From Thiorhodovibrio frisius (GTDB lineage: Bacteria; Pseudomonadota; Gammaproteobacteria; Chromatiales; Chromatiaceae), in NCBI RefSeq assembly GCF_033954835.1, contig NZ_CP121471.1, forward strand, positions 2,412,501 to 2,476,500: DNA of 64,000 nt, given 5' to 3'. Shown piece after piece: positions 3,093 through 45,815 of the stretch; position 1 is the stretch's first letter, and each line of letters opens with the position of its first letter. Made by a program: the position numbers and the translations under genes. The notes below the pieces were generated by a model. It was not told the origin of the DNA. It worked only from the letters and a program-made list of their open reading frames with translations, and searched no databases.

Positions 3093-3400
3093 AGACGCCA
3101 GGTGATTCGCACCTTTTTACTCGGGCTTTGCCCTTGATGAAAAGAACAAGCGGATTGAAACGGGAAGCCGGTTCAGTGGTGGTTGTTTCAAGCAACAATA
3201 ACACCGCGAGTCCGGCGCTGCCCCCGCAACGGTAGGCGAGTTGTGATCGCGACAGATGCCACTGTGGTTGGCCAGGCCCATTGTTTGGGTTCTGGTAGCC
3301 CCATGGGAAGGCGTCGCAATCCGGATACCACAGGCCAGTGATGTTCTCGCATCATTGCCCCTGGCCTCCAGCTCGTGAGCCCGGAGACCGGCCTGCGTCT
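3093..3400 (+). ncRNA. Cobalamin (AdoCbl) riboswitch
   Basis: The leader of btuB carries the conserved cobalamin riboswitch core: 'ACGGGAAGCCGGT' at about 3160, the B12-box stretch 'GCTGCCCCCGCAACGG' at about 3218-3233, 'TGGGAAGGCG' at about 3304 and 'GAGCCCGGAGACCGGCCTG' near the 3' end. The ends pair as a P1 helix (AGACGCCAGG at 3093-3102 with CCTGCGTCT at 3392-3400, one bulge). It should repress btuB-cobU-cobC when cobalamin is plentiful. The gap to the btuB start (about 145 bases) holds the expression platform, not resolved here. Confidence 0.93.
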
Positions 3401-3545
3401 GCTGTGCGGCGTTGCGGAGGGCGGCGGCCGGGTCAGGCCTCGCCCGCGTTGGTCTCCCGTCTTGTGTCCTGTCCCCGTAATGGCCGAATGTTTCCATTCG
3501 ACATAACAGCATCCGCGGGTGAGCGGGTGCGGGACGACGATCATC

Positions 3546-6767: not shown

Positions 6768-7527
6768 GTTTCAATCCGCGCCCGGCCAATTGGCCGGGCG
6801 ATGCAAAGAAGCAAATTATACTCAAGTATATTTTCTTACCCGTTTCAATCCGCGCCCGGCCAATTGGCCGGGCGATGCTTGATAAAGAGAAAAATATTAC
6901 TGATTTAATTGATGTTTCAATCCGCGCCCGGCCAATTGGCCGGGCGATGCCTCTCCTAGTGCGTGATTGCGGCGATCATGGCCGCGTTTCAATCCGCGCC
7001 CGGCCAATTGGCCGGGCGATGCTTCAGGCACTGACAAAACTGCGAGACAGTTATCGTGTTTCAATCCGCGCCCGGCCAATTGGCCGGGCGATGCGGCCAT
7101 CTATGCTTCCCCGATGGCGCCATTACCGCGTTTCAATCCGCGCCCGGCCAATTGGCCGGGCGATGCAAGCAGAGCAAGAAGTTTACTTCCGCGCTGGAAG
7201 GTTTCAATCCGCGCCCGGCCAATTGGCCGGGCGATGCTTTGCCGCTTTTGGTGCGCGCGCAGGGATCGCTCAGTTTCAATCCGCGCCCGGCCAATTGGCC
7301 GGGCGATGCGCAACTGATGATAGCGTCCGCAGCTTTGCAATAAATGTTTCAATCCGCGCCCGGCCAATTGGCCGGGCGATGCCACCGGCCATCACCAGGT
7401 GGCTGCAATAAGTGTGGCGTTTCAATCCGCGCCCGGCCAATTGGCCGGGCGATGCCTGATGGCTTGGGCTTCGTCGGTGAAGGTCAGGGCGTTTCAATCC
7501 GCGCCCGGCCAATTGGCCGGGCGATGC
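6768..7527 (-). CRISPR. Type I-C CRISPR array, 11 repeats and 10 spacers
   Basis: Eleven apparently identical 37-bp repeats start at 6768, 6842, 6914, 6986, 7058, 7130, 7201, 7273, 7346, 7419 and 7491; spacers are 34-37 bp and all different. On the minus strand each repeat ends in GGATTGAAAC, the usual type I-C 3' end, so the array is read leftwards away from the cas2 side. The repeat centre GCCCGGCCAATTGGCCGGGC is a perfect 20-base palindrome, giving a strong crRNA stem followed by a 12-base tail from which Cas5c would leave the 5' handle. No repeat decay is seen at the distal (6768) end. I saw no match of a spacer to the rest of the window by eye. Confidence 0.98.
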
Positions 7528-11515: not shown

Positions 11516-13353
11516 GAGTCAGTCTCCTTGTGATCAATGTGGGGGTCATCAATATTGGGGTCCGTTGTGCCGGTCTTTGGCGTGCGTTTGGTGAAGAACG
11601 CCTGGCGCTGGTGGTAGTAGCCGATGGCGAAGCGGCCTTGATCGGGCATGGCCATCTGGCTGGGGAAATCCGCCAAGCCTTCGAGAATTTCGGCGATCAG
11701 CCGTTCCATGTTCACCGCGCGGCCTTTGGTGAGCTTGCCAATGTGGTGGTTCTTGAGTCGCATCAGGGTCGGGAAGACCGACACCGGCGTGCCGGAGGCG
11801 GCGCCATAGAAGCGGTCGCGAATGGTGGCATTGATGCCCGGGCTGGCTTCCTCCTGAATGCGCTCCAGGGTGGCGAAGAGTCGGCCCAGCCGATAGGCCG
11901 GGCTGGGATTGGCGACATCGAGCATGGGCGTTGGCTCCGTGGCGGGGTTGAATGAGTCGGCTCCAGCGCGTCGCTGGTCGCGACACAGCCAGGCTTTGAT
12001 GGCGGCGGCGCGCGGATAAGTCACGCGCTGCTCGGCGCGGCAGCGTTGCACCGCAGCATGCAGCAGGGTGGTCGGGTAGGGACGCGCGGTGAGGATGGCG
12101 CGCATCACATCGCCGCCGAGATGGGGTGGGATGTTGTCGGCCTTGCCCTGCTGGGCGCAGCTCACCAACAGGCGAAACAGCGACAAGTATTCGGGATCAT
12201 TCGGACCGCGGGCGATGCGCAGATCCTCGAAATGCTGGCGAATGCGTTGGGCCAACTCGATTGCCGGGGCGGTCTCCCAGAAGCGAATACTAATGCGCGC
12301 GGCATTGGGGGCAAGGCCAAGCACATGAAAGCGATCTTCGCCCGTGCCGAGGGCAAAGTGACCGGATGAGACGGCGCGATAGAGCTCAGCAATGGCGCGG
12401 GTGCCTTGGTCGGGGTCATCCTTGGGCGGTTCGCCGAAAATGTCGGGCAGCGCGGTTTCCAGGGCATTGGGCTGTTCGGCCCAGAACACAGTTGATGTGT
12501 CGCCGACCTGGACGCGCTGTGACGACTCCTTGCGTAGCAGATGATTGAGTGCCGAAGTATAAGCGCTGGCGGCAGCCTTGCTGATCGGGGCGTTGGCGCC
12601 CTGCAGTTTGCCGTATGAGCGGAAAGCGCCAAGGTTGAAGGAGACGATATTGGCTCCCGATGTTTGAGCACCCCAAACGCCTTTGATCGGGGGATGCAGC
12701 CGCTCAATGAGACCCGGCTTGCCACTGAGTAGACAGACGGCCCCGGCTTCCTCCGGCTGCGCCGGACTTTGTCGCAAGGCCGCCACCACGTCCGGGCGCT
12801 GGCAGACCAGATCGAGATCGCCGTGCAGTCGAAAGCCCATGAAGGGATTAGTTTTTGCGATGTCTTCCCAAGCGGGAAGCGCCTGAATGGCCCCAAGCCT
12901 GTCGTCGCGCCTGTCGCCGCGAAAGAACGTTCGCACGGCTTGAACCCCCGCGTCCTCCTGGGTGGATTCGGGGAGCTCATCCAAGCGCGCAATGAAGGCG
13001 CGGTGCATGTCCTTCACCCGGCTCAGGTAGTCGTCCGCCTTGCCTTTTTTCTGGCGTTCATCGAGCTTTTTTTGATCCGGAATACCCAGGACATATTCGG
13101 CCGTGTCCCACAGCAGGTTGGCCTTGACCTGGACGGTGCGCTTTTCCGCCTGCGGGACCAAGAATCGCTGTGCAGTCTTGATGTTGCCGTCGCGGCCACG
13201 CGTATCCGCCAGCGAGACGAAGTCACCGGCATGATCGAGCTCGATGACAAAGGGAATCTCTTTGTATTCAAATCCGGCTGGCGCGACTCGATCACCGCCA
13301 CTGCTAGCGGTCTGTTGGCGCTCATAGTAGGCCGCAAGCGCTTGCAAAATCAT
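11512..13353 (-). CDS. cas8c: Type I-C Cascade large subunit Cas8c (Csd1)
   Basis: A 613-residue Cas8c/Csd1, the PAM-recognising large subunit of type I-C Cascade. The N-terminal '[13 protein letters not shown]' and '[19 protein letters not shown]' are typical, as are '[20 protein letters not shown]', '[20 protein letters not shown]' and '[17 protein letters not shown]'. In type I-C an internal start near the 3' end commonly yields a separate Cas11c small subunit; the C-terminal helical part here could do the same but I cannot place the start. It is coupled to cas5c by a four-base overlap. Confidence 0.96.
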
Positions 13354-14018
13354 GCCAACACCTCCGGATCGGACCAGCCCGGCAGATCGATCACGCCGCT
13401 GTTCATTAGGCTGCGGAAGAAACGCGGTTGTGGGTCGTGAGGGTCCGAAAAATCCAGATCGTACAACATGAAGCCAAGGTCACGGCTCTCCGCGATTGGC
13501 GCTGTGGTGACGGAACCGGGCGCGATCAGCGCGAAGGCCGCGGCGAACTCGCGACAGCCGAGGTAGGGCTGATTGACGCATTGCCCTCGACGCGCGCGCC
13601 GCTCGAACATTTGGCGATATTTCTCGCCCTTCGCATCCGGATCGCGCCGCGCATCGAAATGCAACTCGGCATGGAGGCGATAGGCGACATCGCGCAAGAA
13701 CAGCCCGGCGCGCTGCTGGCGGTCGTCCTCAATGAACAATCCGCGATAGCCATCCCCGCCACTGCGATCCGTCGCCAAGCCGCCGACTTCGTTTCGCTTA
13801 AGCGTCATCCAGCGAATGGGCTTGAGTACCTCAATGCGGCGCACTTGCCAGCGAATGGCCGGTTTCCAGAGGATGGCCTCGAAGATGGCGCGCGCGGCCG
13901 AGGGGGTGATGACGTCATAGCTGACGCGCTCGACTTTCATTTCCGGGCGGGTGAAACAGGCGAAATCGCCCCAGACTTCCAGGCAGTAGGTGTTCATGTT
14001 GCCCTCAAAGGTTGTCAT
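13350..14018 (-). CDS. cas5c: Type I-C crRNA endoribonuclease Cas5c (Cas5d)
   Basis: A Cas5c of about 222 residues, which in type I-C replaces Cas6 and cuts the repeat 3' of its hairpin. The signature 'YCLEVWGDFACFTRPEMK' opens the protein, then 'VSYDVITPSAARAIFEAI' and 'RHYLREVAYRL'-like 'FLRDVAYRLHAELHF'. The ATG at 14018 has a GAGG eight bases upstream; another ATG at 13997 with its own GAGG is equally close to the homologous start. The farthest in-frame start (14030) would be a TTG overlapping cas3. Confidence 0.95.
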   Translation of the reverse strand: MTTFEGNMNTYCLEVWGDFACFTRPEMKVERVSYDVITPSAARAIFEAILWKPAIRWQVRRIEVLKPIRWMTLKRNEVGGLATDRSGGDGYRGLFIEDDRQQRAGLFLRDVAYRLHAELHFDARRDPDAKGEKYRQMFERRARRGQCVNQPYLGCREFAAAFALIAPGSVTTAPIAESRDLGFMLYDLDFSDPHDPQPRFFRSLMNSGVIDLPGWSDPEVLA

Positions 14019-14026
14019 GCCGGCCC

Positions 14027-16303
14027 TCAAACAATGGTTTGCGCGGGCCGTGGTGCGGCGCCCTCGGTGATCAAGCCCAGATCGGCATCGTAGAGCCAGT
14101 CGCTGATCTGCACGAACAACCCCGGCACCTGCTCCTCGACATCGCCCTGGTCGAGCAGGCGCAGCGCATCGCGTCGCCCGATAGTCACCATGTAGCGTTG
14201 CAAGCGCCGCATCAGCCAGCGATCCGGGCCGTTTTTACGCAGTGAGCCGAGCAGCATGTCGATGTCATTGTTCTCCGTATCCCGGTCGAGCACGACCACG
14301 GAAACGCTATCATCGTCCTCGATCATCTGAAAGTGTTCGGCGGCACCGCGGAACTGCACATTCAGTGCCTTGGGATCGTCGATACTGAGCAGGCGGCGAA
14401 TGCCATGGGCATCGAGGTCGCGGCTGTAGTAAAGCCGTTCGAAGTAATCCGCGAAGCGGGAGCGGGCGAGCGGGTCTCCGTCCTCAATGCCGTGCAGGGT
14501 GGTGCGGCAGGCGTCCTCGGCCGCGCGCAGCAGGCCGGCTGGAGGTGGCTCGGGCGGGATGAATACCACCACCTCGCCCTGCTTCATGCGCCCCTCGCGA
14601 TTACAGCGCCCGGCCGCCTGGCCGATGGAATCAAGGCCGGACAGCGCGCGATAGACGACCGGAAAGTCGAGATCCACACCCGCCTCGACTAGCTGAGTGG
14701 AAACCACTCGCGTCGGCACACCATCGGCCAAGCGCTGGCGGATGCGGCGGATGACCCGCGAGCGATGCGCGCCGCACATCAGCGCCGACAGATGCAGGGC
14801 GCCGGGCGGCATGGCGCGGAAAAGCTCGCGGGCGTGGCGGCGGGAGTTGACGATGACCAGGGCCGAGTCATGGTGGGACAATTCCTCGGCCAGCGTCTCC
14901 CAACTGACGGGTTGCCGCCAGTCGAGCGGCAAGCGCACCCGCACGCGGCGCAATTGATCATAGAGCGCGTCGGGATTGGGGATGATCTCGCGGACATTGT
15001 CGAGCCCGTCGAAATGGCGCGCGGAGTCGAAATAGCGCCGGCTCCCCAGCACTGGCTGAGTCGCGGTGGCCAGGACGAAGGTGACGCCATAGTGCTTGGC
15101 GAGCAGATTCATTACATCGACAATGGGTTGCAAGAGCGCCGGCGGCAGCAGTTGCACCTCATCGAGAACGACCACGCTGTTGACGATATTGTGCAGCTTG
15201 CGGCAGCGCGAGGTGCGCGCGGCGAACAGGGACTCGAAAAACTGCACGCTGGTGGTGACGATAATGGGCGCATCCCAGTTCTCGCAGGCCAGCCGGCTGC
15301 GAAGGTTTTCGGTGTCTGGCGTTGCCTCCGCCGCGCTGTGGTGCTCCAGCACCGCGTCACCGAAGATGCCTCGAAACACCGCTGCGGTTTGCTCAATGAT
15401 GCTGGTGTAGGGGATGACGTGAATCACCCGGCGCCGTCCATGCCGCTGCGCATGGCGGAGCGCGAACGCCATGCTGGCCAGGGTCTTGCCGCCACCGGTC
15501 GGCACCGTTAGCGAAAACACCCCTGGCTCCATCTCCGCCGCTTGACGGCAGTGCGCCAGCACCTCGGCGCGCAACTGATTGACCGGGGTTGGCGACGCTT
15601 GCTCGGCCAAGGCTTTCATCGCCTTATCGAATGCGGGGCCGAGGCTCGCCAGCTCAGGCCAGTGGGCGCGGCGTTCGGACTGCGGCGGGTCCATGAAGGC
15701 CTCGGTGTCGAGGAAGTCGGCATCGACCAGGCAGGAAAACAGCATCCGCACCCAGAGCGAGAAGCCCTCTTTGCCACCCGGCACCTGGCGCAAATCACGC
15801 GGCGGGAGTGCGGGGTGCAGGATATCCGGCGGTGGCTCGGCGGCGAGGCTTTCGGCCAGTTCGTCGCGGGCGTCATCGCCGGCCATGCGCTCTTTCAACC
15901 CGCCGTCCCAGTCGTACAGTCCGGCGTGGTGACCCGCGATCACATAAGCCAGAACGCGGCCAGCGATCGCCATGTCCCGTTCCGCCAGCAAGGCACCAGC
16001 CGTGGAGTGCGGCGCGCGCCCAGGGCGGGTTTCGAGATGGGCGGTCTCGGGGTCGAGCCCCACAGCCTCGCGGATATAACGCTGGAAGCGTGGTCTAAAT
16101 TTTCCGAGATCGTGCCAAAGCCCGGCTGCCGCGGCCCAATCCGATGAACCGAACAAGAGCGCGAAATCAGAGGCTAACCGGGCGACAGCTTTGAGGTGAT
16201 CATCGAGTAAATGGAAATGCCAGCGACCTTGGTTGTCCAGCCGCGCATGCGCCAAAAAACCCTTCTTCGACGACATAAATCCCTCTATGTTGATGACCGA
16301 CAC
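14027..16303 (-). CDS. cas3: CRISPR-associated nuclease-helicase Cas3 (HD-domain containing)
   Basis: A 758-residue Cas3, recruited by Cascade to unwind and degrade target DNA. The N-terminal HD nuclease has 'HLLDDH' (about 31-36) and 'LWHDLGKF' (about 62-69) plus 'AGHHAGLYDWDG'. The SF2 helicase has Walker A 'TVPTGGGKT' (about 267-275), the DExH-like box 'VVLDEVQLLPP' (about 377-387), 'VLATATQP' and motif VI 'QAAGRCNREG'. A second in-frame ATG at 16276 is possible as the start. First gene of the operon. Confidence 0.96.
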   Translation of the reverse strand: MSVINIEGFMSSKKGFLAHARLDNQGRWHFHLLDDHLKAVARLASDFALLFGSSDWAAAAGLWHDLGKFRPRFQRYIREAVGLDPETAHLETRPGRAPHSTAGALLAERDMAIAGRVLAYVIAGHHAGLYDWDGGLKERMAGDDARDELAESLAAEPPPDILHPALPPRDLRQVPGGKEGFSLWVRMLFSCLVDADFLDTEAFMDPPQSERRAHWPELASLGPAFDKAMKALAEQASPTPVNQLRAEVLAHCRQAAEMEPGVFSLTVPTGGGKTLASMAFALRHAQRHGRRRVIHVIPYTSIIEQTAAVFRGIFGDAVLEHHSAAEATPDTENLRSRLACENWDAPIIVTTSVQFFESLFAARTSRCRKLHNIVNSVVVLDEVQLLPPALLQPIVDVMNLLAKHYGVTFVLATATQPVLGSRRYFDSARHFDGLDNVREIIPNPDALYDQLRRVRVRLPLDWRQPVSWETLAEELSHHDSALVIVNSRRHARELFRAMPPGALHLSALMCGAHRSRVIRRIRQRLADGVPTRVVSTQLVEAGVDLDFPVVYRALSGLDSIGQAAGRCNREGRMKQGEVVVFIPPEPPPAGLLRAAEDACRTTLHGIEDGDPLARSRFADYFERLYYSRDLDAHGIRRLLSIDDPKALNVQFRGAAEHFQMIEDDDSVSVVVLDRDTENNDIDMLLGSLRKNGPDRWLMRRLQRYMVTIGRRDALRLLDQGDVEEQVPGLFVQISDWLYDADLGLITEGAAPRPAQTIV

Positions 16304-16622: not shown

Positions 16623-17042
16623 TCCCGCGAAAAAGCGTTTCGATTTTCCCTTGCGGGCGTGCAGTTGAAGTTCTCCGGCGCCGCGGACGCGGCCGGCGGA
16701 TTAACCATTCCGGCAAGCGGCGTGGGCGGCGACTGGATCGTCAAACTGCCCGCTCGGGACTATGGCGGCGTCCCCGAGAACGAATTCTCTATGATGACAC
16801 TCGCGCGGCAGATCGGCCTCTCTGTCCCCGCCATCGATCTTGTCGATCTGGCGTCCATTCAGAATCTGCCAAACGGCCTTGACCATCTCGGAGACAAGGC
16901 CTTTGTCATCAAACGCTTTGATCGCGCCGCACAAGGCGCTGTTCACATTGAGGACTTCGCCCAGGTTTTTGACCTTTACGCCAGGGTCGCCGAGGCCATC
17001 GACGGGCATCTGGCGCGCCTACCCATTGCGCGTGGTATTTGA
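16623..17042 (+). pseudogene. hipA: HipA-type kinase toxin fragment
   Basis: An open stretch encodes the middle of a HipA serine/threonine kinase: 'FSLAGVQLKFSG' (N-terminal subdomain boundary), 'GLTIPASGVGGDWIVKLP', 'YGGVPENEFSMMTLARQIG', 'VPAIDLVDL' and 'FVIKRFDRA..GAVHIEDFAQVF'. These are highly conserved HipA blocks. The first ~80 residues and the entire catalytic C-lobe are absent; the frame ends after 'HLARLPIARGI'. No HipB antitoxin is nearby. It is a relic. Confidence 0.85.
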
Positions 17043-17236: not shown

Positions 17237-18598
17237 ATGACTGAGGTTGGTTATCTACTTCTCGTGCTAGTGATGGCAGTCGCGTTCATCGTGCTTGCCA
17301 CCTCACAGTTGAAGTGGCACCCCTTCATTGTCCTGTTGATGGCCTCCTATGGCATCGGCTTTGGCGCTGGCATGGACCCACTGGCCATCGGCGCCACCAT
17401 CCGCTCCGGGTTCGGCAGCATCCTCGGCTATATTGGCATCATCATTATTCTTGGCTCCCTGATCGGTACCATCCTGGAGCGCACCGGGGCGGCGATTACC
17501 ATGGCCAATGCGGTGCTCAGGCTGCTTGGCGGTCGCTTTCCGGGGCTAGCAATGAGCCTCATGGGCTACGTGGTCTCTATCCCGGTGTTCTGTGATTCCG
17601 GATTCGTTATTCTGTCATCGCTGAAACGGGCATTGGCGGAGCGGGCCAGGGTGTCGGCGGTGATGATGAGCGTCGCCCTGGCCACTGGCCTGTTTGCCTC
17701 TCACACCCTGATTCCGCCCACCCCAGGCCCGATTGCGGCTGCCGGAAACCTGGGGCTGAGTGACAAGCTCGGCTTGGTCATCGTCACCGGGATTCTGGTC
17801 TCCTTCGCGGCGGTATTGACCGGCTATGCTTGGGCGGTCTTTGTCGGTCAGCGCCTGAGCAGTGGCGAAGATGGCGCCAATTTTGATGAGGCGGCCTACG
17901 AAAAGGCTCTGAAGGAATACGGCAAGCTGCCCTCGGCGACCATGGCTTTTGCCCCGATCATGGTGCCCATCCTGCTGATCGCACTTGGTTCGGTCGCAGC
18001 CTTCCCCAGTCATCCGTTGGGCGAAGGCACCGCCTTTGCGATCATCAGCTTTCTGGGCAAGCCCATCAATGCGCTGTTCATCGGCTTCTTTATCTCGCTG
18101 GGCCTGCTGCCGTCGTTGACCAAGGTGACCACCTACGACTGGATTGAGGACGGTCTCAAGAGCGCGGCCACCATCATCATGATCACTGGCGCCGGCGGTG
18201 GCCTCGGGACCATCCTGAAAGAGGCCGGCATCGGCGAGGTGCTGGGCAACGCATTGGCGAGTTACAACCTCGGCATCTTCCTGCCGTTCGTAATCGCCGC
18301 GGCGTTCAAGACCGCCCAAGGGTCCAGCACCGTGGCCCTGGTGGCGACCTCAGCCCTGATCGCGCCGATGCTCAATTCGCTGGGACTGGATTCGACCGCT
18401 GGTCAGGTGTTGACGGTCATGGCCATCGGCGCCGGGGCGATGACCGTATCGCACGCCAATGACAGCTTCTTTTGGGTCGTGGCGCAGTTCAGCAAGATGG
18501 ACGTCAGCACCGCCTATCGGGCGATGACGGTGGCGACCCTGATCCAGGGACTGACTGCGGTTGCGGTGGTGTACCTGATGTCGCTCGTATTGCTATGA
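17237..18598 (+). CDS. GntP family permease (gluconate/glycerate-type H+ symporter)
   Basis: A 453-residue inner-membrane symporter of the GntP family with about 12-14 hydrophobic segments from 'TEVGYLLLVLVMAVAFIVLA' on. Family blocks include 'PVFCDSGFVIL', 'HTLIPPTPGPIAAAG', 'TAQGSSTVALVAT' and 'VSHANDSFFWVV'. The ATG at 17237 follows a GAGGGG at about 17225-17230. It overlaps the glycerate kinase start by four bases, so glycerate or a related hydroxy acid is the likely substrate. Confidence 0.9.
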   Translation: MTEVGYLLLVLVMAVAFIVLATSQLKWHPFIVLLMASYGIGFGAGMDPLAIGATIRSGFGSILGYIGIIIILGSLIGTILERTGAAITMANAVLRLLGGRFPGLAMSLMGYVVSIPVFCDSGFVILSSLKRALAERARVSAVMMSVALATGLFASHTLIPPTPGPIAAAGNLGLSDKLGLVIVTGILVSFAAVLTGYAWAVFVGQRLSSGEDGANFDEAAYEKALKEYGKLPSATMAFAPIMVPILLIALGSVAAFPSHPLGEGTAFAIISFLGKPINALFIGFFISLGLLPSLTKVTTYDWIEDGLKSAATIIMITGAGGGLGTILKEAGIGEVLGNALASYNLGIFLPFVIAAAFKTAQGSSTVALVATSALIAPMLNSLGLDSTAGQVLTVMAIGAGAMTVSHANDSFFWVVAQFSKMDVSTAYRAMTVATLIQGLTAVAVVYLMSLVLL

Positions 18599-19866
18599 AC
18601 TCCCGCACTGCGATCAGGACCGAGCCGATGCGGGTCTTGGTGGCGCCTGATTCCTTCAAGGGAAGCATGGACGCGGCGACCTTTTGTGACATTGCTGAGG
18701 AAGTGTTCAGTGCCTGTCTGCCCGATTGCGAGGTGCCCAGTTGCGAGGTGCCCAGTTGCGAGGTGCCCAGTTGCGAGGTGCCCAGTTGCGAGGTGCCCAG
18801 TTGCGAGGTGATTAGCCTGCCGATGGCGGATGGTGGCGAGGGAACCGCCGAGGCGATGGTGAGAGGCACCGGCGGCGAAGTGCGGATGCTCAGCGTGACT
18901 GGCCCCATGGGCACGCCGGTCGAGGCCAGTTACGGCCTGCTCGGCGACGGCGTGACTGCGGTGGTGGAGATGGCGCAGGCGTCGGGGCTGCCGCTGGTGC
19001 CACCGGGGGCGCATGATCCGCTGCGGGCGACCTCCTATGGCACCGGCGAACTGATCGCCGAGGCACTGGGGCAGGGTGCCGAGCACGTCATCCTGGCACT
19101 GGGCGGGTCGGCGACCAACGACGGCGGCATGGGCGCACTGCAGGCGCTGGGCTTCCGTTTTCTCGATCATGCCGGCGCCCCGGTTGCCCCAACTGCCGAG
19201 GCGCTGAGGCAGATCAAGTCCGTGGTTTTCGACGACCTCCATGCCAAGCTGGACTCTGCCCGTTTCACCATCGCCTCGGACGTCACCAACCCCCTGCTTG
19301 GTGAGCGCGGCGCGACCGCAGTCTATGGTCCGCAGAAGGGGGCCGACGAAAAGGCGCTGCGGCACTTGGAGCAGGGTTTAGCCCATTTTGCCGATCTCAC
19401 CGACCAGGCGACCGGGACCGATCACCGCGAACACCCCGGCGCGGGAGCGGCCGGCGGCATGGGGTTCGGGTTCTTGAGTTATCTCGGCGCCACGCTACGC
19501 AGTGGTTTCGAGGTCGTCGCCGAGACCTACGGCCTGGAGCAACGGCTCCAACAGGGCCATTGGGATCTGCTGATCACCGGCGAGGGACAGGTCGATGTTC
19601 AGAGCATGCAGGGCAAGCTGGTCGGACGACTGGCCGAGCTGGGGCAGGCGCACCAGATTCCGGTTCTGGTGGTGGCTGGTTCGATCAGCGGTGATTTGGA
19701 GAACCTGTACCGCGCCGGCGTGACCAGCGTTTCAAGTATCGTTGAGGGGCCGATGACGCTGGAGCAAGCGATGGAACAGGCGCCAATGCTCTTGCGGCGG
19801 CGACTGACCGACCTGTGCCGATTGTGGCGGGTCGGGAGCTTGGTCGACCATGCAACGTCTTGCTAG
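18595..19866 (+). CDS. glxK: Glycerate kinase (GlxK/GarK family) with an internal CEVPS repeat
   Basis: A 423-residue type I glycerate kinase making 2- or 3-phosphoglycerate from glycerate. Motifs: 'VLVAPDSFKGSMDAATF', 'LPMADGGEGTAEAM', 'ALGGSATNDGGMGALQALG', 'SDVTNPLLGERGA' and 'GAGAAGGMGFG'. The ATG at 18595 overlaps the permease stop (ATGA); another ATG at 18628 starts directly at 'MRVLVAPDSFKG'. Residues after 'CLPD' are expanded by five in-frame copies of the pentapeptide CEVPS before the normal 'CEVISLPMADGGEG' resumes. The frame is intact and the insertion lies in a surface-type junction, so the enzyme may still work. Confidence 0.92.
   Translation: MNSRTAIRTEPMRVLVAPDSFKGSMDAATFCDIAEEVFSACLPDCEVPSCEVPSCEVPSCEVPSCEVPSCEVISLPMADGGEGTAEAMVRGTGGEVRMLSVTGPMGTPVEASYGLLGDGVTAVVEMAQASGLPLVPPGAHDPLRATSYGTGELIAEALGQGAEHVILALGGSATNDGGMGALQALGFRFLDHAGAPVAPTAEALRQIKSVVFDDLHAKLDSARFTIASDVTNPLLGERGATAVYGPQKGADEKALRHLEQGLAHFADLTDQATGTDHREHPGAGAAGGMGFGFLSYLGATLRSGFEVVAETYGLEQRLQQGHWDLLITGEGQVDVQSMQGKLVGRLAELGQAHQIPVLVVAGSISGDLENLYRAGVTSVSSIVEGPMTLEQAMEQAPMLLRRRLTDLCRLWRVGSLVDHATSC
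18727..18810 (+). repeat. 15-bp tandem repeat (5.6 copies) inside glycerate kinase gene
   Basis: The unit TGCGAGGTGCCCAGT is repeated five times without a mismatch from 18727 to 18801, followed by nine bases of a sixth unit. Being 15 bp, gain or loss of a unit keeps the frame and changes the protein by five residues (CEVPS). Perfect identity suggests recent slippage. Confidence 0.97.
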
Positions 19867-34794: not shown

Positions 34795-35588
34795 TGGACC
34801 TGGCCACTCGCGAGGCGCTGACAGCCCAGTTTCGCGCCTATCTCGATACCATTGCGGCAGAACAAGCGGCAGAAGAACAAGCACCGGATCAACTGGCCGG
34901 TGACCTTGGGGCCGGCGCAGACGACTGGGACGACGGCCAAGACAAGAGTCGGCGCGACTCGGGAGCTGACGGGCGGGCCGTCAGCGCAGCCGAGGGCGGA
35001 GCCGAGGAGGCACCCGCGCCCGATCTTTTCTCGTTCTTCGCCGAACTGGCCGCGCTCAAAAACGAGGTCAAGCTCGAGTCCCGGCAGGTCAGAACCGCGC
35101 TGGAGGAGTTCCGTGGTCTGTTCGACAACCTGCGCGAGAGCCAGACGCGGCTCGCCGACGAGCAGGAACGCCGCTGCGAGCAGACCCGCGCGGCCGACCG
35201 CGCCGGCTGGCGCGACATGCTGCTCGAGTTGGTCGAGCTGCGCGATCGGCTGCAGGCCGGTCAGGAACAGGCCGCACGCTTTCAGCCCCACTGGTATGCG
35301 CGCAATCGCCGCGAGGCACGGCTGATCGGCTCTCTGGCCGAAGGCATGGCCATGAATCTGCGTCGGCTCGAGGAGAGCCTGGCGCGGCGCGGGGTGCGGC
35401 CCATTGCGACAGTTGGGCGCTTGTTCGACCCGCACCGCATGCGCGCGGCGGAGCTGACCCGCGAGCCCGAGTACCGCAATGGCGAGGTGATGGCCGAGTC
35501 GCGGCCCGGCTGGCTGCTGCACGACGATCTGCTGCGGCTGGCCGAGGTGGTCGTCAACCGCATCGACACCCCAGAAAGCATGGATTAG
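34794..35588 (+). CDS. GrpE-like nucleotide exchange factor
   Basis: A 264-residue GrpE-type protein. The N-terminal half is acidic and low-complexity, then a long coiled coil (about 75-135, 'LAALKNEVKLESRQVRTAL'), and a C-terminal GrpE beta-domain: 'GVRPIATVGRLFDPHRMRAAEL' and 'NGEVMAESRPGWLLHDDLLRLAEVVVN', aligning with GrpE's 'G..FDP..H.AV' and 'GY.L..R.LRPA.V.V'. It should exchange ADP on the Hsp70 encoded next. Its stop codon lies in a 15-bp tandem repeat. Confidence 0.8.
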   Translation: MDLATREALTAQFRAYLDTIAAEQAAEEQAPDQLAGDLGAGADDWDDGQDKSRRDSGADGRAVSAAEGGAEEAPAPDLFSFFAELAALKNEVKLESRQVRTALEEFRGLFDNLRESQTRLADEQERRCEQTRAADRAGWRDMLLELVELRDRLQAGQEQAARFQPHWYARNRREARLIGSLAEGMAMNLRRLEESLARRGVRPIATVGRLFDPHRMRAAELTREPEYRNGEVMAESRPGWLLHDDLLRLAEVVVNRIDTPESMD

Positions 35589-35630
35589 CAAAGCATGGAT
35601 TAGCAAAGCATGGATTAGCAAAGCATGCAT
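35575..35630 (+). repeat. 15-bp tandem repeat at the GrpE-like stop codon
   Basis: AAAGCATGGATTAGC occurs three times in a row (35575, 35590, 35605) followed by a partial fourth copy. The first copy supplies the last residues and TAG stop of the GrpE-like gene; the next copies each hold the same in-frame TAG. The repeat fills most of the 80-bp gap before the Hsp70 start. Confidence 0.95.
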
Positions 35631-45520: not shown

Positions 45521-45684
45521 TGTGAGTTTGCCATTGTCCGCGTCAAATTGAGCATTCACCGTTACTTGAGCCTATAAACAATTGTTTTTATAGCTTTATA
45601 AGCGGAATCCTTGCATTCGCGTGGGTGAGCTATGAGAGCCTTGCCGCCAGACGGCCGCTTCCATCCTCCGGGGTCGGTGGGAGC

Positions 45685-45784
45685 ATGAGCCTGACCGTGA
45701 AACAAGGGTTTCATCCTCCAGGGTGGCCAGGACTATGAGCCTGACCGTGAAACAAGGGTTTCATCCTCCAGGGTGGCCAGGACT
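45685..45784 (+). repeat. Two perfect 50-bp tandem copies in the rpoD leader
   Basis: The 50-base unit beginning ATGAGCCTGACCGTGAAACA is present twice without a mismatch (45685-45734, 45735-45784); a partial, diverged copy (CATCCTCCGGGGTCGGTGGGAGC) precedes it and ATGAGCG follows. The repeats end 31 bases before the rpoD ATG, so they are in the 5' leader of the sigma-70 mRNA. Each unit can pair internally (CCTCCAGG...CCTGG-type), role unknown. Confidence 0.9.
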
Positions 45785-45815
45785 ATGAGCGTTAGCCAGA
45801 TTCAATAGGTACTTT

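Follow-up and report, generated by a model that had tools for sequence, protein, structure and literature searches.

The window, as we call the 64,000-nucleotide stretch of the genome of the purple sulfur bacterium Thiorhodovibrio frisius analysed here, carries a glycerate kinase gene of the GlxK type directly downstream of a gene for a GntP-family permease, and the two overlap in the sequence ATGA, where the start codon of glxK shares bases with the stop codon of the permease gene (Table 1). The whole glxK product scored above the curated cut-offs of both families to which it was assigned, PF02595 (E 2.9e-134, 448.2 bits against a Pfam cut-off of 23.3) and TIGR00045 (420.6 bits against an NCBIfam cut-off of 168.45), and remained under the cut-offs of the NCBIfam equivalogs for glycerate 2-kinase and glycerate 3-kinase. 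Upstream of gntP lies a short open reading frame with a partial HipA_C match, and farther away the window holds a CRISPR array, cas genes of a system read as type I, a cobalamin riboswitch and a tandem repeat of longer period.

Table 1. Features of the window discussed in the text, with positions counted from its first nucleotide.
Feature	Position	Strand	Details and evidence
Cobalamin riboswitch	3106..3410		76.6 bits
CRISPR array	6768..7527		11 CRISPR-DR9 repeats listed
cas5/cas3 genes	13350..16303		System read as type I
ORF, probably a HipA gene remnant	16659..17042		127 aa; partial HipA_C match (PF07804, profile positions 17-90 of 213)
GntP-family permease gene	17237..18598	+	PF02447, E 8.5e-91; sequence
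Glycerate kinase gene (GlxK type, PF02595)	18595..19866	+	423 aa; Pfam, NCBIfam, solved relatives 3cwc and 1to6
Degenerate first unit CCCGATTGCGAGGTG (PDCEV)	18721..18735	+	PDCEV at the corresponding place in G002
Perfect 15-bp tandem array, 5.7 copies (CEVPS x5 + CEV)	18726..18810	+	TRF; unit counts, translation
Five exact CCCAGTTGCGAGGTG units (PSCEV x5)	18736..18810	+	One such unit here in G002
Second perfect 15-bp array, AAAGCATGGATTAGC x3.5	35575..35627	+	TRF; between GrpE-domain gene and Hsp70-family gene
50-bp tandem repeat	45662..45790		2.6 copies, 91% matches

The kinase gene contains a tandem array of period 15, for which TRF returned the consensus TTGCGAGGTGCCCAG in 5.7 copies with 100% matches and no indels, and the in-frame 15-bp repeat claimed by the original prediction was thus found where it had been placed. 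A near-unit, CCCGATTGCGAGGTG, which deviates from CCCAGTTGCGAGGTG at two bases, precedes five exact CCCAGTTGCGAGGTG units, so that the array is better counted as six units, one encoding PDCEV and five encoding PSCEV. The units stand head to tail in the reading frame of the glycerate kinase, as in an intragenic VNTR, and encode the peptide CEVPSCEVPSCEVPSCEVPSCEVPSCEV, in which six cysteines occur in 28 residues, with one more cysteine four residues upstream; the Cys-rich character and the kept frame, both pointed out beforehand, are therefore real features of the gene. Beyond the first unit 70 consecutive bases match, and two first-order Markov simulations of 464 kb produced no array of even 2.4 copies, which led us to reject a chance origin. 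We likewise rejected a mobile or dispersed repeat, given that a 21-base pattern spanning the unit junction gave five overlapping matches, all of them inside the array, and its reversed control none in the whole genome (one contig, 5,417,120 bases).

Comparison over 402 codons with the glxK gene of G002, a genome of the same genus, gave dN 0.032 against dS 0.187 once the array was excluded, and from these values the rest of the glycerate kinase is judged to be under purifying selection. All invariant residues of a 55-protein alignment are present in the glxK product, whose own residues are included in that alignment by construction, and the ADGGEG loop (residues 78-83) is among the family-invariant segments. 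The G002 enzyme (L007) reads PMADGGGG at this loop, with glycine at E82, where glutamate is invariant in 55/55 aligned proteins; the substitution reflects a change of GAG to GGG, of which there are three with respect to the window's glxK, and the activity of the G002 enzyme may differ. The surroundings of the gntP-glxK pair differ in G002, where its flanks match at other places or find no match, and the homologue in G001 shares just 42% identity. Other G002 segments are likewise 93-94% identical, and the identity of the pair consequently makes no case for its horizontal transfer.

The place of the array is best appreciated from the predicted structure. The AlphaFold2 model of the glycerate kinase, built with 55 sequences, reached a mean pLDDT of 89.9 and a pTM of 0.87, and Foldseek aligned it with 3cwc (E 6.3e-44, the top match) and 1to6 (E 3.3e-36), nothing else falling below 0.001. 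The array follows the first predicted helix (residues 27-41) and stands ahead of a strand (residues 70-74) and of the PMADGGEG motif, in agreement with the position originally proposed. Residues 42-69 were modelled without secondary structure, and the blocks covering residues 41-70 had pLDDT values of 50-60; on the strength of this model, the array most likely forms a flexible surface loop.

Such a long connection is exceptional in the family. A wider search returned a homologue in 38/210 genomes, and the linker between the KGS-type and the DGGEG-type motifs was examined for the loci returned. Its length was 26 aa in 110 of the 116 loci, a set that counts in the window's own locus, takes 80 from genome contigs and the others from whole-genome searches, and contains two same-gene pairs (L012/L015 and L014/L016). 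The linker measures 51 aa in the window, 31 aa in G002 and in G006 (a genus-level relative), 25 aa in L072 and 52 aa in L078; in L013, one of the 116 loci, the linker motif was not found. The array was accordingly rejected as a conserved feature of the family. The extra length of L078 is an unrelated, non-repetitive insertion of 26 aa at the same place as the array, and in the alignment of 55 proteins 25 extra columns are occupied by the window and L078 only, an indication that the site is tolerant of added length.

Whether related glxK genes carry copies of the unit, as the original prediction proposed to check, can be answered from the orthologous site, which holds six units in the window's genome (G000), two in G002 (CLPDCEV-PSCEV-IGLP) and G006 (CLSGCEV-PGCEM-LGLP), and one in nearly all others, including L097 (IPGCEV), L098 (FPGCEV) and L099 (LPDAEI). 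G000, G002, G006 and L097-L099 represent different species, and the number of units at the orthologous place thus varies between species; the variation in copy number that had been anticipated was recovered between lineages (1, 2 and 6 units), one genome being compared per species. The alignment with G002 shows the difference as a matter of whole units, 60 of its 2639 DNA columns being gap positions, exactly four units, and the protein alignment assigns these 60 gapped bases to four extra units. In the glxK tree, built without the middle of the linker, G000 and G002 are joined in turn by G006, L097, L098 and L099, with fork supports of 96/95 for G000, G002 and G006 together, 95/94 for L097, 94/94 for L098 and 95/89 for L099, while the fork of G000 with G002 is weak (83/40). 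The simplest history would place a single duplication ahead of the divergence from G006 and the gain of four further units on the branch leading to the window's species, and by this comparison the six-unit array is to be regarded as a lineage-specific expansion. That the five units are perfectly identical is weak evidence of recency, since at a dS of 0.187 about 1.4 synonymous changes would be expected by hand estimate, with a chance of roughly one in four of finding none.

Tandem arrays of this kind are also found at other places in the genome. In the window plus 60 sampled stretches (1.264 Mb in total) we counted 25 perfect arrays with at least 2.4 copies and a period of 7-60, the commonest periods being 12 (10 arrays) and 15 (5 arrays), and 17/25 being divisible by 3. 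The glxK array had the highest copy number among them, which could hint at selection or could be merely the tail of the distribution. The second 15-bp array of the window sits at the stop codon of the GrpE-domain gene, every unit repeating the in-frame stop; it is 30 bp longer in G000 than in G002, and its unit is absent from G001. Conversely, a 15-bp array of G002 (L148:1463-1513), lying in an open frame with PKQAA repeats, exceeds its counterpart in G000 by about 15 bp; it lies towards the end of a short ORF that looks like a membrane-protein gene, beside a frame that seems ATP-synthase-a-like. For a third array of G002 (L153), no clear equivalent could be identified in G000. Both the GrpE-associated and the L148 array are unrelated in sequence to that of glxK, and their differences between species indicate that changes in the length of short in-frame arrays are general in the genus and not peculiar to glxK. 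Three adjacent perfect 12-bp arrays were also observed within one long ORF at L208:7538-7721, where they encode PDPA/PDPT repeats.

Taken together, these data make it very probable that the array arose by slippage or unequal exchange in a length-tolerant loop and is nearly neutral. A single duplication of a 15-bp stretch, coding for the final part of the first linker between helix and strand (P-x-C-E-V), would have taken place in an ancestor shared by the Thiorhodovibrio-like and Rhabdochromatium-like genes; in the window's species the resulting two-unit seed would then have grown to six units as identical units slipped during replication or exchanged unequally. Since 15 is divisible by 3 and the array occupies the loop that connects helix 27-41 with strand 70-74, each added unit would extend this flexible loop by five residues without disturbing the kinase fold. 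Slippage or unequal exchange at a two-unit seed in a length-tolerant loop would account for all the observations; that slippage was the mechanism, that the extra length is nearly neutral and that the enzyme stays active is what we infer. Selection for length is possible, with one genome carrying six units.

Alternatively, copy number may vary within the population and tune the kinetics or regulation of the enzyme. The different unit numbers between species and the proximity of the array, which ends shortly before the invariant ADGGEG loop, fit such a role, and forms of leuA with two and fourteen copies have been found to differ in substrate affinity and feedback inhibition (PMC2704214); the predicted flexibility of the loop and the unrelated insertion of L078 at the same position nonetheless speak against it, and we consider it improbable. 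An even smaller probability is given to a function of the cysteines, which in a sulfide-using phototroph might bind metal or form disulfides and render the enzyme redox- or metal-sensitive. Six cysteines spaced five residues apart, and the presence of the cysteine in each of the two units of G002 and of G006, would suit this proposal, but the spacing is the automatic result of repeating a five-codon unit, the array has no predicted structure, and the cysteine, absent from L099, is already there in the single-unit relatives L097 and L098 (GCEV), so that the Cys-richness need not be a selected motif. It is very unlikely that the array is a copy-number-adjustable thiol loop through which slippage tunes the redox or metal sensitivity of glycerate kinase.

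Tandem arrays are a usual site of assembly error, so that an inflated number of units has to be considered as well. The 85-bp array is, however, far shorter than a long read. The genome of T. frisius 970 is described in PMC10609205 as a single contig of 5.42 Mb sequenced with PacBio Sequel IIe at 911x, and if the present genome is the same one, it comes from a closed PacBio assembly at that coverage; G002, obtained with the same methods if correctly matched to that source, shows a different unit number. An artefact is on these grounds highly improbable. The same article reports that the whole puf cluster is duplicated in T. frisius 970 (PMC10609205), and we observed two pairs of pufL/M-type reaction-centre genes in the window's genome and one pair in each of two same-genus genomes. 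A role at the level of DNA or RNA, either as a hairpin or through the ribosome-binding-like GAGGTG that occurs once in every unit, with the peptide incidental, has the lowest probability of all and seems barely credible: the strand folded worse than 200/200 shuffles (z +2.64, DNA parameters) and no Rfam family was found at the array, for which reasons a DNA or RNA structure was rejected.

Growth by slippage or unequal exchange, our preferred explanation, would make the glxK array a clean, dated example of in-frame minisatellite growth (from one to two to six units over the branches of the tree) in a conserved housekeeping-type enzyme, and the array might serve as a marker for typing the genus. 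Were length to affect activity, these genes would offer a simple natural series for testing loop length against kinase tuning. As it stands, the array mainly represents ordinary repeat evolution, probably a product of DNA slippage. No report of a tandem array in a glycerate kinase was found among the titles and beginnings of abstracts of the papers retrieved, and the passages of the genus paper (PMC10609205) that were examined mention neither glycerate kinase nor tandem repeats.

Among known systems, the solved enzymes 3cwc (Salmonella) and 1to6 (Neisseria) have their fold and family in common with the glxK product, but they possess a short helix-strand linker without an array, where the glxK product carries one. 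In mutL, alleles with 6-bp repeats are converted through slipped-strand mispairing (PMC2955026); as in glxK, a short in-frame repeat lies in an enzyme gene and slippage can alter its copy number, although in mutL the copy number turns function on or off, while the glxK loop appears length-tolerant. The leuA gene of Mycobacterium tuberculosis, encoding alpha-isopropylmalate synthase, contains a 57-bp VNTR whose variation among strains is documented and whose kinetic consequences have been compared (PMC2704214). Both leuA and glxK thus present an in-frame tandem repeat of variable number within a metabolic enzyme gene, with a 57-bp unit varying among strains in the former and a 15-bp unit varying between species, as known from sequence, in the latter; by analogy, and although none of the observations requires it, a function of the array length or of its cysteines is possible, as leuA shows for another enzyme.
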